DNA of 64,000 nucleotides from NCBI GenBank assembly GCA_017399035.1, contig JAFQEM010000009.1, positions 21,006-85,005 of the forward strand, given 5' to 3'. This document shows, one piece after another, positions 5,121 through 28,381 of this stretch. Source of the stretch: Clostridia bacterium. GTDB taxonomy: Bacteria; Bacillota; Clostridia; Christensenellales; Borkfalkiaceae. Every line of letters starts with the position of its first letter. The stretch's first letter is position 1. The notes beneath the pieces are model-generated. The model was not told where the DNA came from. It did not search any database and was given only the letters and a program-made list of their open reading frames with translations. Both the position numbers and the translations under genes were made by a program.

Positions 5121-6560
5121 CTATTTGGTCGTTTGTGTAAAATATTCTTTCTTTCCACCGTGGCCACCAAAGATATTCCAAATTCCTACGCCTAATCTAT
5201 GCAAAAAAGCAGAACGCTCTTTTGAACAAAGTTTTACGTCAGTATCCACCGAAGTCATTAAAATAGGTGCGTATTGATTATATTCGGCTTGTTTTTTAGT
5301 TAAATCTGTAAGATTTATAAACACGTCGCCCGTAAAAGCAACCATATGCTCGTAATCAATTAACAAAATTTCACCAGGTAAATGCCCGCCCTTACCTTCG
5401 TAAACTTCAAAATTAAGTTCACCTACAGAGTAAAAACCTATCTGTTCTATAGGGGCAGTTAAACTTGATTTATTCCACAATGGATAAAGTTTGTTTTTTT
5501 GAGCAGTTTCATACTCGGTTAAAATTTTACAAATACTTACGTATGGCAAATGCAAATAATTTCTTTCTCTAAAACCAGCAGTATTGTCTGCTTCTGCGCT
5601 TAAACTTTCAAAACTTCTTTGACTTGTTATAACTTCATCAAATTCATTAAGCAAACCACAATGGTCAACGTCTGCGTGAGTGATAATTAACCTTTCCTTT
5701 TTTGTTTTGAAATCAGGCACTAGGCTTTTAATCAAATTAAGCATTTCCTTTTTATAGCAAGCGTAACCCGAATCAACAAACACTCTTTCGCCGTCGCTTT
5801 GTATAATAGCGGTATTACTGCCACAATCAGGTTCTATTAAAATAATTTTCGTCTTTTCTGTGATATTATGCGTGGTAATTCTAGGGTTAAAGTTTTCGCC
5901 TTTGCTTTCTGCTAAAAGTTCTGCAAACTTACTTATACTATCAAAAGTTTTATAGGGGGAAAGACCTTGTTCGTCAAGCGTTTGCATTGCCAAATTTACG
6001 TTAACTAACAGTTCTTCTTTCTTTTTTTCTAAAAGCCCCATAGTTTTAACTAGCCCGTCAACGTAAGTGTTGTAAAAAATACTATTATCAAAAACCTTTT
6101 CAGTATTGTTATAATCAATAACGTTAACTTCACAAAGTTTTTCAGCTTGCGCTAAAAATTCGGTTAAATCATTTGTCTCATTTACATATAAGCCCATTTT
6201 AAAATATTGATAATCACTTCCGTTTTCTTGAGAACTAATATAAGAAATATTAAAATTAAAATTATTGATTAACTCTAAAACATTCGTTACACTTCCGGGT
6301 TTATCTTCCAAACGGAACTCTACCAAAACGATTTTGGTGTTTTCATCACCGTTTGAAAGATACCCTATTTCTTTTAATTTTTCATTTGCCTTTTCAAATT
6401 GAGTTTGTTCACCGTCAACTTCAATAAATAGAGTGTGAGAATCAACCGCTTTATTGTAACTAACTCTAGTAATGTTTATATCTAATTCAGAAAAACACTT
6501 ACTTGCTTTTAGAAAAGCGCCGATATGATTAGGCATTTTTGTTACGTATGTTTTTTTCAT
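5121..6560 (-). CDS. ACT-ACT-metallo-beta-lactamase-fold protein
   Basis: 479-residue protein. Two ACT-like ligand-binding modules are seen at about residues 3-68 (TKMPNHIGAFLKASKCFSEL) and 77-145 (EFRLEDKPGSVTNVLELINN). After a helical linker, an MBL-fold domain runs from about 235 to the end. MBL ligand motifs are THADVDHCG, GGHLPGE, FTGDVF and GGHGG. The first motif is HxDxDH rather than the usual HxHxDH, so metal binding may differ. It starts 6 bp after the XRE-cupin-acyl-CoA synthetase gene and is clearly co-transcribed. ACT domains often bind amino acids, which fits a T-box-controlled operon. A thioesterase-like or other hydrolase role acting on the synthetase's products is a guess; the true substrate is unknown. 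Confidence 0.78.
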   Translation of the reverse strand: MKKTYVTKMPNHIGAFLKASKCFSELDINITRVSYNKAVDSHTLFIEVDGEQTQFEKANEKLKEIGYLSNGDENTKIVLVEFRLEDKPGSVTNVLELINNFNFNISYISSQENGSDYQYFKMGLYVNETNDLTEFLAQAEKLCEVNVIDYNNTEKVFDNSIFYNTYVDGLVKTMGLLEKKKEELLVNVNLAMQTLDEQGLSPYKTFDSISKFAELLAESKGENFNPRITTHNITEKTKIILIEPDCGSNTAIIQSDGERVFVDSGYACYKKEMLNLIKSLVPDFKTKKERLIITHADVDHCGLLNEFDEVITSQRSFESLSAEADNTAGFRERNYLHLPYVSICKILTEYETAQKNKLYPLWNKSSLTAPIEQIGFYSVGELNFEVYEGKGGHLPGEILLIDYEHMVAFTGDVFINLTDLTKKQAEYNQYAPILMTSVDTDVKLCSKERSAFLHRLGVGIWNIFGGHGGKKEYFTQTTK

Positions 6561-6566
6561 AACGTA

Positions 6567-8834
6567 TTAAAGTTTATTTCTTTGAATTTTTCCGCTGATA
6601 GTTTTGGGAAGTTCGTCACGGAACACAACCACTCTAGGATATTTATAAGGTGCGGTATGGTCCTTAACGTATTTTTGAATTTCCTTCTTCAATTCTTCAC
6701 TAGGTTTAGTTCCTTTAGTTAAAACTATGCTTGCCTTAACGACTTGGCCACGAACTTCGTCAGGAACGGCAGAAACGCCACATTCTAATACGTAAGGTAA
6801 TTCCATTATTACGCTTTCAATTTCAAACGGTCCGATACGGTAACCACTAGACTTTATAACATCGTCAACACGGCCAACGTACCAAAAATATCCGTCTTCA
6901 TCTCGCCACGCAGTGTCGCCCGTATGATACAAACCGTCGTGCCAAGCATCTTTAGTTTTAACCTCGTCAAGATAATATTCTTTGAATAATCCACAGGGAA
7001 CTTCTTTGTCGGTATGGATAACTATTTCACCAACTTCACCTGCAGCCACGGGATTGCCGTCAGCGTCAACAATATCTACGTCAAATTGCGGGCTTGCCTT
7101 ACCCATAGCGCCGATTTTTGGCGTAGTGCCGTAAAGGTTTGCTATTGCAAGAGTAGTTTCAGTTTGACCAAAACCTTCCATAATCTCTAACCCTGTTGCA
7201 GCCTTAAATTGATTGAATACTTCTGGGTTAAGCGCCTCACCTGCGGTAGTCATATGATGTATTGAAGACAAATCGAATTTAGACAAGTCGCCACGGATAA
7301 GCATACGGAGCATTGTGGGCGGAGCGCAGAAAGTGGTTATGTTATATTTTGCAAACATAGGCAATATATCGTTTTCATCAAACCTATCAAAGTCATAAAC
7401 GAAAACTGCGCCTTCGCAAAGCCATTGACCGTAAAGTTTGCCCCAAAGTGATTTACCCCAACCCGTGTCGGAAATAGTAAGGTGCAAACCGTCTCTTTCG
7501 CAACAATGCCAGTATTTTGCCGTTACGAAATGCCCCAAAGCGTAAGTGTGTTTGTGCGCTGCCATTTTAGGATTGCCAGTAGTTCCCGAAGTAAAGAACA
7601 TAAGCGCAGTTTCATCACCGCAAGACGCATCTTCAGTGCGCTCAAACTTACCAGAGAACAAGGGATATTCTTTATCAAAATCGTGCCAACCCTCTTTAGC
7701 GTCGCCAACCATTATAAGCGTTTCAACTTGCGAACACTTTTTAGCCGCGCTTTGCGCAAATTGATAAGTGTCGCCGTCGGCGGTGCAAACTATCGCCTTA
7801 ACGCCTGCAGAATTATATCTATATTCAAAATCGTGTTCTTTAAGTTGATTAGTTGCAGGTATTGCAACTGCGCCAAGTTTATGAAGGGCAACCATACAGA
7901 ACCAGAATTGATAGTGGCGTTTAAGAACAATCATAACTTTATCGCCACGCTTAATACCTAAAGACGTGAAATAGTTTGCCACTTGGTTAGACGCGCGCTT
8001 TATATCTTTAAATGTAAAACGACGTTCGTTTTTAAATTTATCTAAATGCAACATTGCAAGTTTGTCGGGATATTTTTCAGCAATTTGGTCAACTATGTCA
8101 AAACCGAAGTTGAAAGTTTTTGTATTTTTAAATTTAATGTTTTTAAGTTCACCGTTTTCGTTTTCTTCAACGTCAACGAACTTTTCGCACACCAAACTTT
8201 CACTCTTTTTAGCCGCCATAACGCTCTTTCTAACAGCGGTTTCTTCGGTATTATCACCCGACATAACCACCGCAACGAAAGTGCAATCTTGCCCGTCAAC
8301 GGCAATCATACCGTGTGGGATAGAAGAGTTATAATAGATGCTATCGCCTTCGCCCAAAATTTCAGTATGGTCGCCAACTTGAACTTTGAGTTTACCGTTT
8401 AAAACTAGGTCAAATTCTTGACCGCTGTGAGTGGTCAAGTGAATAGGCTTATTTTGTTGAGTGGCAGAATATTCATACTTAACGTAATAAGGTTCTGCAA
8501 GTTTATCTTTAAATTTAGGCGCAAGGTTAGAAATATCAATGCCGTCTTCTTTAGCAGTTTCTTGCCCACGGCCTTTTCTTGTAACCGTATAAGTGGAAAG
8601 TTTTGCAGAACTACCTTGCAAAAGTTCTGTCATTTCTACTTTGAAAACCAAAGCGCATTTGTGGATAAAAGAGAAAGGAATATCCACCGTTCCACTTTCA
8701 TAAGAAAGATATTGTTGTTCGGAAACGTCGGTTTTTTCAGCTAATTCTGAAACGGAAAAGCCCATAATTTCACGCAACTCCTTAATTCTAGTTGCGATTT
8801 CAGATAACTGATTTAAAGTGTTGTTTGAGTTCAT
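6567..8834 (-). CDS. XRE-cupin-AMP-forming acyl-CoA synthetase fusion
   Basis: 755-residue three-part protein. Residues about 10-65 are an XRE-type helix-turn-helix (IKELREIMGFSVSELAEKT). Residues about 115-190 are a cupin (HSGQEFDLVLNGKLKVQVG, SSIPHGM). From about 235 it is an ANL-superfamily acyl-CoA synthetase resembling medium-chain ACSM enzymes. ANL motifs seen are the P-loop FFTSGTTGNPKMAAHKH, GFGQTE, YHTGD, the hinge GRVDDVIKSSGYR, and the catalytic Lys in PKTISGKIQR. It would activate a carboxylic acid with ATP to the acyl-CoA, while the HTH and cupin may sense ligand or bind DNA. It is the first gene after the T-box leader and repeat array, and is coupled to the ACT-MBL gene. A GGAGG-like site precedes ATG. 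Confidence 0.87.
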   Translation of the reverse strand: MNSNNTLNQLSEIATRIKELREIMGFSVSELAEKTDVSEQQYLSYESGTVDIPFSFIHKCALVFKVEMTELLQGSSAKLSTYTVTRKGRGQETAKEDGIDISNLAPKFKDKLAEPYYVKYEYSATQQNKPIHLTTHSGQEFDLVLNGKLKVQVGDHTEILGEGDSIYYNSSIPHGMIAVDGQDCTFVAVVMSGDNTEETAVRKSVMAAKKSESLVCEKFVDVEENENGELKNIKFKNTKTFNFGFDIVDQIAEKYPDKLAMLHLDKFKNERRFTFKDIKRASNQVANYFTSLGIKRGDKVMIVLKRHYQFWFCMVALHKLGAVAIPATNQLKEHDFEYRYNSAGVKAIVCTADGDTYQFAQSAAKKCSQVETLIMVGDAKEGWHDFDKEYPLFSGKFERTEDASCGDETALMFFTSGTTGNPKMAAHKHTYALGHFVTAKYWHCCERDGLHLTISDTGWGKSLWGKLYGQWLCEGAVFVYDFDRFDENDILPMFAKYNITTFCAPPTMLRMLIRGDLSKFDLSSIHHMTTAGEALNPEVFNQFKAATGLEIMEGFGQTETTLAIANLYGTTPKIGAMGKASPQFDVDIVDADGNPVAAGEVGEIVIHTDKEVPCGLFKEYYLDEVKTKDAWHDGLYHTGDTAWRDEDGYFWYVGRVDDVIKSSGYRIGPFEIESVIMELPYVLECGVSAVPDEVRGQVVKASIVLTKGTKPSEELKKEIQKYVKDHTAPYKYPRVVVFRDELPKTISGKIQRNKL

Positions 8835-8897: not shown

Positions 8898-9270
8898 AGA
8901 AACGCAGTTCGTACACCCTTTTTGTTTGTTAGAAACAAGTTGCAGTAGGCTCGACTGTGCAAAAAGATGAAATAGACCGTCTGGTCATTGAAGTTTTTTG
9001 CACAAGTCAGTAAACGACCTGCAACGCAATTTATACACCCTTTTTTGTTTGTTAGAAACAAGTAAGACAAGGCTCGCAAAGTGTTTTGGGTGAGATTAAC
9101 CTTTGTGGTTATCGAAGTCAAAACGCTTTGCAGAAACGCAGTTCGTACACCCTTTTTTGTTTGTTAGAAACAAGTTGCAGTAGGCTCGACTGTGCAAAAA
9201 GATGAAATAGACCGTCTGGTCATTGAAGTTTTTTGCACAAGTCAGTAAACGACCTGCAACGCAGTTTATA
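8898..9270. repeat. Tandem array of structured repeats (three units) between T-box and synthetase gene
   Basis: A nearly identical segment of 29-30 nt (containing GTTTGTTAGAAACAAGT) occurs three times, at 8912-8940, 9034-9063 and 9146-9175. Between and after them lie long hairpins. Units 1 and 3 (8898-9034 and 9132-9269) are almost identical over about 137 nt: TGTGCAAAAA pairs with TTTTTGCACA, and inside GACC pairs with GGTC. The middle unit has a different stem, GCAAAGTGTTTT (9076-9087) with AAAACGCTTTGC (9120-9131), and inner AACC with GGTT. Pairing is kept while the sequence changes, which suggests selection on structure. There is no plausible protein here. Spacers are too long and too self-complementary for a CRISPR. 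Confidence 0.85.
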
Positions 9271-9275
9271 ACAAA

Positions 9276-9548
9276 CAAAAAACCCGCCTCAAATTTCTTT
9301 GAGACGGGTATAAATACTCGCGGTACCACTCAAATTGCAGTTTTCACTGCCACTCTCGAAGTCCATCAACTTCTATGCATTGACGCAGCAATCACGGGAA
9401 ACGCCTACTTGGGGAATAGCCCTTTGGGATTTCCGGCTCGGAAGTGATGGGAAGTCTATTTGTCTTTATCGGGATTACACCGCCCCCGACTCTCTGAAAA
9501 AAACGCTTAATAGGTTCCGTCTTCGTCGTAGCCTTTGCTATTAAATTT
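9276..9548 (-). promoter_or_regulatory. T-box riboswitch leader (best specifier AUC, isoleucine)
   Basis: Read on the minus strand, the RNA has the stem I features CAGAGAGTCGG and AAGTAGGCG. It has the T-box core GAGTGGTACCGCGAG at about 9317-9331, then a terminator of ACCCGTCTCAAA paired with TTTGAGGCGGGT followed by TTTTTT (9277-9309). The specifier region reads CCCATCACTTCCG (about 9443-9455); AUC followed by A is the usual layout. The acceptor-binding loop is TGGT, which pairs with ACCA and so needs an A73 tRNA. That fits tRNA-Ile and argues against a CAU/His reading. Uncharged tRNA would favour antitermination into the repeat array and the acyl-CoA synthetase operon. Confidence 0.9.
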
Positions 9549-27410: not shown

Positions 27411-27466
27411 TAGCCACGATTAAACGGTTTAGAAACGAGCCTACTGCAACGAAGTTTATAAAGCGT

Positions 27467-28381
27467 TTAACCTTTGAGACCACCGATTGAAAGGTTAGTC
27501 ATCATCTTTTCTGCAATAAACGCATAACAAATCATAACAGGGATAAGGGTAAACACTAGACCGCAGAAGTAGATAGGATACCCTGCACGCTCTATGGTCA
27601 GCGAAACTTTATATAGACCGCTGGCAACCGTTGGCGTACTTGGCAAATAAACGAGCGGGCCGTTATAGTTGTTCCACAAACCAACTGCGCTTGAAACTGC
27701 AAGAGCAGAAAGCATAGGCATTGCTTGTGGCAACATAATTTTAAAGTAAACCGTTGTGTCGCCACCACCGTCGATATAAACCGCCTCTGCGTATTCCCAA
27801 GATATACCACGGAACAAACCAACCATAGTAAGGAAAGAACCGCCCAAGCCACCAAAGGTGGTCATTATCAAATAGATAGGTCCTTGGTCATAAAGCCCCA
27901 AGTCGTTTATAAGTTTATAGCCTGCACCACCAGTGCCGTAAACGGGAATAAGCGCGTTTATAATAACCAAGTTGTAAAGGAAGTTTCTTCCAATGAAACG
28001 ATATTTTGAAACGATATAAGCAGTGGTTGCGTGCCAGAAGATACTTTGGAAAGTACCTATGCCCACCCACCAAATACTGTTGGTAAGCATTCCGAAGAAG
28101 TTTACGCCTTTATCTTGTATTCTGGTAAATGCGTTAGCATAATTTTCCCAGTGAATTACGTCGGTTACGTATAGCCAGCCATGCAAGTTTCTGTTAAACA
28201 AATATGCGCCGGGGTCTTCAACCGATTTTAACAGCAACCAGAAAACTGGGAAAGCAAGCGAGAATGCGTAAATTGCGCAGAAAACTGCCATTACGCCAAA
28301 AAATATTTTTTCGCCCACAGAAACACGTTGAGTGAGTATTGATTTTTCTTTAATTTTTTTGTTTTTAATAACTTTTTGCAT
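27467..28381 (-). CDS. Carbohydrate ABC transporter permease, inner-membrane subunit 2
   Basis: 304-residue MalG/YcjP-like permease with about six membrane helices. The ATPase-coupling EAA motif is seen as EYAEAVYIDGGGDTTVYFKIMLPQAMP. It pairs with the 318-residue permease upstream (18 bp away) and the binding lipoprotein. The operon has no ATP-binding subunit, so it must borrow one, as many Gram-positive sugar importers do with a shared MsmX-type ATPase. Confidence 0.9.
   Translation of the reverse strand: MQKVIKNKKIKEKSILTQRVSVGEKIFFGVMAVFCAIYAFSLAFPVFWLLLKSVEDPGAYLFNRNLHGWLYVTDVIHWENYANAFTRIQDKGVNFFGMLTNSIWWVGIGTFQSIFWHATTAYIVSKYRFIGRNFLYNLVIINALIPVYGTGGAGYKLINDLGLYDQGPIYLIMTTFGGLGGSFLTMVGLFRGISWEYAEAVYIDGGGDTTVYFKIMLPQAMPMLSALAVSSAVGLWNNYNGPLVYLPSTPTVASGLYKVSLTIERAGYPIYFCGLVFTLIPVMICYAFIAEKMMTNLSIGGLKG

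Follow-up and report, generated by a model that had tools for sequence, protein, structure and literature searches.

Several described families of small repeats and mobile elements resemble the element analysed here. The nearest published counterparts are the stem-loop families of two Clostridium species (Clop-1 and Clot-1), likened to it by description and not by sequence; together with ERIC, bcr1 and other stem-loop families covered in the accessible part of PMC2267715, they share its size range, stem-loop form, intergenic position and many copies. REP, BIME and REPIN repeats with TnpA-REP (RAYT) likewise occur as many dispersed intergenic hairpins, partly in clusters, and follow a single-strand, lagging-strand logic (available text of PMC6006769). 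For IS200/IS605 elements, the available portion of PMC5371812 describes an orientation that recapitulates the direction of replication; their mode of insertion, on the lagging template and just past the 3' side of a short site, would fit our element as well. The pneumococcal BOX, RUP and SPRITE repeats are small too, and some encode the stop codon of a neighbouring gene; 60.8-63.3% of them lie on the leading strand, mirroring coding bias (accessible text of PMC3049150).

Three hairpin units beside a T-box leader

The window, i.e. the whole 64,000-nucleotide stretch of a Clostridia bacterium contig that we analysed (JAFQEM010000009.1, positions 21,006 to 85,005), holds an array of three hairpin units placed between a T-box leader and the start of the gene for a 755-residue HTH-cupin-acyl-CoA synthetase (Table 1). 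The original prediction for this locus had described a short segment that recurs three times, each time followed by a long hairpin. We confirmed the recurrence: 54-nt copies lie at 8900, 9023 and 9135, thus 123 and 112 nt apart, and the hairpins fold with z-scores of -3.82, -3.70 and -3.79 for units 1 to 3 (RNA parameters, + strand). The middle unit indeed has a different outer stem and an AACC/GGTT inner stem, which had been read as compensatory change. The covariation holds, but as units 1 and 3 are near-identical (98% over 120 nt), the window supplies only two independent versions, and the proof comes from copies elsewhere.

Table 1. Coordinates of the array units and of the host features around them in the window.
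Feature	Position	Strand	Basis
HTH + cupin + AMP-binding (acyl-CoA synthetase) protein, 755 aa, downstream gene	6567..8834	-	ORF, domains
Right-end remnant of a further, deleted unit	~8898..8911	+	sequence equals unit 2/3 junction, by eye
Unit 1, core type A, farthest from T-box	8919..9044	+	R1 covariance-model match, 96.2 bits
Unit 2, core type B (G000:C5:30043-30177)	9038..9172	+	R1, 94.7 bits
Unit 3, core type A, adjoins T-box terminator; complete hairpin including outer stem P1	9150..9284	+	R1, 129.1 bits
P1 distal (left) arm of unit 3, TTTTTTGTTTGTTA	9153..9166	+	repeat search, DNA fold
P1 proximal (right) arm of unit 3, U-tract side of T-box terminator	9269..9282	+	inverted repeats, DNA fold
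T-box terminator stem-loop, host sequence adjoining array	9283..9310	-	sequence
T-box leader upstream of acyl-CoA synthetase gene	9297..9538	-	RF00230, 76.6 bits, E 1.4e-16

An outermost stem, P1, had been overlooked. In unit 3 its two arms pair with each other, which makes this unit one continuous 135-nt hairpin (DNA parameters, z -8.3); the distal arm, TTTTTTGTTTGTTA, precedes all three units and is one T shorter at unit 1. The array lies on the + strand and is thus antisense to the acyl-CoA synthetase operon.

Although the match to RF00230 falls below the gathering score of that family (93), we judge the T-box to be real. It is a neighbour of the array, which is a separate element and no part of the T-box. 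The suggestion that the hairpins form a second regulatory layer under the T-box found no support, and we rejected it because the T-box is only one of many sites at which the element occurs: of the 37 hits of covariance model R1 in the window's own genome (G000), 3 fall in the array, the array is antisense, and most other copies examined stand beside unrelated genes.

Two neighbouring proteins combine several domains. The downstream gene fuses an N-terminal, regulator-like helix-turn-helix and cupin to an AMP-binding enzyme, and the next gene on the same strand (5121-6560) joins an ACT domain to a metallo-beta-lactamase fold.

A dispersed hairpin with covarying stems

The hairpins in the window are copies of an apparently unnamed dispersed hairpin element of about 134 bases. 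We found 24 blastn matches in the window's own genome; across 61 genomes, matches occurred in 23, all of them within the 37 members of the genus, and in none of the 24 other members of the order. After omitting three of 35 raw copies, which looked truncated, degenerate or oddly ended, we aligned the remaining 32 with MAFFT (alignment A1). Model R1 gave 37, 48, 9 and 42 hits at E <= 0.01 in genomes G000, G003, G010 and G036, respectively. Larger genome searches were run with stricter filters and have rough E-values: R1 had hits in 29 of 44 genus genomes (the other 15 being without a hit at E <= 1e-4) and in 21 of 200 order genomes from 14 genera, while R2, a model of the second core type, had hits in 44 of 391 class genomes and in 35 of 398 phylum genomes from 33 genera, the own genome being included in each of these last three counts. 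Copies at the order level share the frame (arm)TTAGAWRC-RAG-CAAGAC-AAGG ... AACGCAGTATTGCG-NAG-YWTATAA(arm) and differ in the apex. A weak partial match to the element model also lies in the window itself, at 27415-27474 on the + strand (28.9 bits; G000:C5:48420-48479).

These results support the proposal that the structured element is undescribed and may form a mobile hairpin family: the covariance-model search that had been suggested for it returned dozens of dispersed copies with paired substitutions, and no Rfam 15 family reached its gathering threshold over the element in the window and the loci scanned. We therefore rejected a known RNA family; E-value scans against Rfam gave no more than chance-level overlaps at the array (E 0.76 and worse) and nothing convincing elsewhere. 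A phage origin was rejected as well, since 9030-9284 had no match in phage records and exact patterns occurred in 0, 1 and 1 viral contigs.

One viral contig of 19 kb from IMG/VR matches the second core type exactly at two places about 4 kb apart (L233, 5965-5998 and 10016-10049). A second repeat (GGGAAGAGGAGGGGCAATGT...), seen at L111 (queA-tgt spacer) and L173, is nested in one element's apex and also stands beside other elements. Furthermore, an attenuator-like conserved sequence, CGCCCTT...AAGGGCG, adjoins the element in four genomes (L007, L020, L021 and L023), most of which also have GGCGCACCTTTTAGTTTAGGTATTT there; scans of two of these loci, L007 and L020, matched no Rfam family there.

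Structurally, the element forms one long, imperfect hairpin, and paired changes maintain its stems. In A1, 88.4% of 1352 cells are paired compared with 65.4% in shuffles, a measure that leans towards structure because the structure was drawn from the same sequences. The stronger evidence for covariation is given by the counts of changes on both sides and by slid controls. Specifically, 307 cells are changed on both sides compared with 104.8 in shuffles (0 of 500 shuffles as high), 37 of 43 pairs carry such changes, and sliding the partner by 1-3 columns lowers the proportion of paired cells from 88.4% to 33-40%. Integron attC sites end in RYYYAAC and GTTRRRY boxes; we rejected this identity because the AAAC/GTTT pair at the element's end varies among A1 copies (ATGC/GCAT, TTAC/GTAA; by eye).

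The kinds of pairs bear on whether the structure belongs to DNA or RNA. In 66 genus copies (alignment A2, five regularly mismatched pairs omitted) we counted 2259 Watson-Crick, 44 G-T and 19 A-C cells. The G-T proportion of 44/2303 (1.9%) compares with 12/91 G-U (13%) in RNase P of the own genome, a comparison limited by the fitting of A2 to the model, by a control that consists of one molecule and by the non-independence of cells; in A1, 36 of about 1195 paired cells are G-U (3.0%). Since G-T pairs are so rare, this suggests a structure at the DNA level. Of the original wording, ‘RNA or DNA element’, the structured element thus stands, and RNA is doubtful on account of the rare G-T pairs and of copies in rRNA operons with the opposite orientation to transcription. 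As DNA, either strand folds well. The + strand has a slight advantage, both as DNA and as RNA, although the lagging template would be the - strand, which counts against the main reading given below; so does the + strand's excess of GT (44) over AC (19), which mildly hints that this strand is under selection.

Orientation, gene ends and the distal arm

Where tested (four genus genomes and one contig of a fifth), the orientation of the element goes with replication direction, for which GC skew and coding strand served as indicators. The 136 R1 hits in G000, G003, G010 and G036 form 107 clusters on 38 contigs, of which 14 hold one cluster, uninformative alone, and the other 24 hold 93 informative clusters. 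Orientation is uniform on 22 of these 24, with no opposed neighbours within 600 nt in the four genomes. The remaining two (G003:C4 and G036:C10) switch once each, and GC skew and coding strand flip in the same interval as the element; once these two skew switches are allowed for, 0 of 93 clusters are discordant.

We examined GC skew for 22 of the 38 contigs in all analyses, the window included. In 20 chosen stretches on 19 contigs of G000, G003, G036 and G007 (18 of the 38 R1 contigs plus both ends of G007:C6), element sign and skew agreed 20 times out of 20, ‘+’ going with negative and ‘-’ with positive skew, with the skew of two stretches near zero (-0.005 and -0.009). One G007:C6 stretch has balanced coding, and G000:C14, a stretch with a ‘+’ copy, has most of its coding on the + strand, the element's own, with almost no skew; both points count against the main reading. 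On G003:C15, all 20 listed copies are ‘+’, and 58 of 279 called genes lie on the other, minority strand. Had orientation merely followed transcription at that rate, 93 concordant clusters would have a probability of about 4e-10, assuming independence.

Outside the genus this polarity is weaker. We found an adjacent opposed pair in G073, mixed contigs in G110 and G235, and opposed copies in one locus of G421; in G727, hit positions alone can be read as 7 of 8 hits fitting a single switch. In three class genomes (G372, G434 and G590), copies directly abut the 23S and 5S rRNA at their 5' ends and lie on the rRNA strand, so that their relation to transcription is the reverse of that of copies at gene ends. 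This speaks against a single RNA function shared by all copies as well as against a polarity that holds everywhere. Separately, about 120 extra bases lie in the 5' region of the 16S rRNA of G372 (L217, 285-1937), and a 137-base insert lies in the 23S rRNA of G434 (L221, 2068-5119), both resembling intervening sequences.

Many copies end at genes that run towards them. The right end lay within -25..+2 of the stop codon of an opposite-strand gene in 31 of 52 rows (some of which revisit a place), in 14 of 25 rows of a second set (25 of 35 elements, from a list without the four weakest of 38 hits and with one R1 place added), and in 17 of 30 rows for copies that either come from beyond the genus or have the second core type. 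These are raw counts, uncorrected for intergenic length: genes are longest open reading frames, uncurated, and element ends are approximate. TTTAA occurs at many of the stop-codon sites, and many copies have TTAA-like outer ends. At two sites compared between G007 and G018, different core types occupy the same stop-codon position, with the neighbouring gene piece 98 and 95% identical.

At the queA, acs and T-box sites, the host gene end or terminator tail beside the proximal end recurs as its reverse complement in the distal arm. For queA in nine species, the arm matches the 3' coding end of its own queA at 73 of 90 positions; permuting arms among the species gives 51.7 (P = 1e-4), and G007 retains two wobble pairs. 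The queA-tgt search gave matches in 41 genomes, from which we fetched 30 intergenic loci; by eye, 9 had the element, 6 had remnants or were cut, and 15 were without it. On a weakly resolved tree, the species with the element at queA do not form a clade and show hardly any clustering (6 changes, a number as low being reached in 42 of 500 shuffles), which counts against the main reading. In three species (G000, G030 and G008), the arm at the T-box site tracks the terminator tail, down to its length (by eye). At the 3' end of acs, again judged by eye, the matching arm is present in all three units of G007; in G010 it is present in the gene-proximal unit and in a truncated one, and a middle unit has different arms. 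Where the C-terminal acs codons of G007 and G010 differ by a codon change, the arm changes with them. One acs mismatch is common to both species, which speaks for an inherited arm over fresh copying.

Mobility, alternatives and known systems

We consider it about an even call that the array arose from a small, mobile DNA hairpin that is non-autonomous and stands here three times in tandem. On our best reading, such a hairpin would behave like IS200/IS605 or REP elements without necessarily belonging to either. The element would fold as DNA and move, or be copied, via single-stranded DNA at the replication fork, and the strand used would be the gene-sense strand next to it, i.e. the lagging-strand template. 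It would take its place on the 3' side of a short, AT-rich sequence (TTTAA, often a stop codon) that may pair with its own distal arm, the stop-codon position being where it presumably does little harm. We also entertain a broader conjecture, tentative and on balance unlikely: that protein-less mobile hairpins throughout the phylum find their site by pairing of the distal arm with a gene 3' end on the lagging template, so that each lineage's arm is matched to ‘its’ gene end (queA, acs or the T-box terminator) and new copies stack there.

Three enzyme families searched in the 44 genus genomes (Y1 transposase, reverse transcriptase and TnpB) yielded no partner. Y1 transposase (PF01797) occurs in 6 of them: G003 (a high-copy genome), G018, G008 and G027, with partial matches in G023 and G024, and one each in G003 and G018. 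It was found in none of G000 (69% complete), G036, G022 and G007, and no element stood beside the four Y1 loci examined. Reverse transcriptase (RVT_1) was found in 5 of 44 genomes, none of them among G000, G003, G007, G022 and G036, and the TnpB domain in 0 of 44 over the cut-off. With genes so sparse or absent and no element at the Y1 loci, we rejected a REP/RAYT, reverse-transcriptase or TnpB partner.

Several properties of the element could also reflect a structured RNA or 3'-UTR element that serves the host (an mRNA stabiliser, RNase III site or partial terminator) and is kept at gene ends by selection. The frequent stop-codon position, the occupation of the same sites in several species (queA, acs and T-box), the very strong covariation and the copies that abut 23S and 5S rRNA at the 5' end in three class genomes are all in keeping with such a role. 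However, as the gene copies in the genus are antisense and those in rRNA operons sense, one RNA function could hardly serve both; moreover, G-T pairs are rare, no consistent T-run follows the stem (by eye), and the element is missing from relatives at the same site (the 15 of 30 queA loci classed by eye) and from the 15 of 44 genus genomes without a hit under the stricter filters. We regard this explanation as rather unlikely. A warning follows for similar loci: stems that covary strongly beside a riboswitch do not have to belong to a regulatory RNA.

Replication itself could make and keep the palindromes by template switching (quasipalindrome correction), with no dedicated mobility and with an orientation that comes from leading-strand synthesis. 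Template switching has been proposed to create and repair stems (available part of PMC8794818), and arms that track the host gene end and pair in Watson-Crick fashion with few G-T pairs would be expected of it. Yet purine mismatches at fixed positions stand uncorrected (e.g. G-A at A2 columns 30/178 in 35 of 66 genus rows), the two wobble pairs of G007 persist at queA, and the dispersal of a conserved core throughout the phylum stays unexplained, so that we find this account decidedly unlikely. The element family offers a case in which two causes of stem covariation, selection and template switching, can be told apart. We give little credence to a MITE moved by an unrelated host DDE or serine/tyrosine recombinase and oriented via the sliding clamp, as with TnsE of Tn7. 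Clamp-mediated orientation bias is known for several transposons (accessible text of PMC5371812), and the TTAA-like outer ends of many copies would suit it; judged against the terminal inverted repeats of MITEs, the element's ends are complementary and its arms vary by site. By contrast, no target duplication was demonstrated in the G007/G018 pairs, in which the search for a clean insertion facing an empty site gave rearranged arrays; this counts against the main reading too.

To return to the mobile DNA hairpin, its comparison with the systems named at the outset is mixed. REP units measure 21-65 nt, have a GT[AG]G foot and come with a partner Y1 gene, whereas the element measures about 134 nt and has the left foot TTAGAWRC (by eye, A1 and A3); the sparse distribution of PF01797 (6 of 44 genus genomes, none in G000, and none of four loci with the element) sets it apart from REP/RAYT in this respect too. 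Unlike IS200/IS605 elements, which have subterminal hairpins, it is one hairpin that spans its whole length, and most of its carriers lack tnpA, with no tnpB over the cut-off. In the largely open-access literature searched, we found no description of this family. The main text of PMC2267715, as far as accessible, does not contain the words ‘orientation’, ‘stop codon’ or ‘compensatory’; Clop-1 and Clot-1 are set apart from our element by description only and may be identical to it. The published small dispersed hairpins that we compared lean only slightly to one strand: for the pneumococcal repeats the share on the leading strand is 60.8-63.3% (accessible text of PMC3049150), compared with 0 of 93 discordant clusters for the element with its two skew switches allowed for. 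Its polarity on the tested contigs of the genus, its frequent stop-codon sites and an arm that copies or follows the host gene end make replication-coupled insertion testable from sequence alone.
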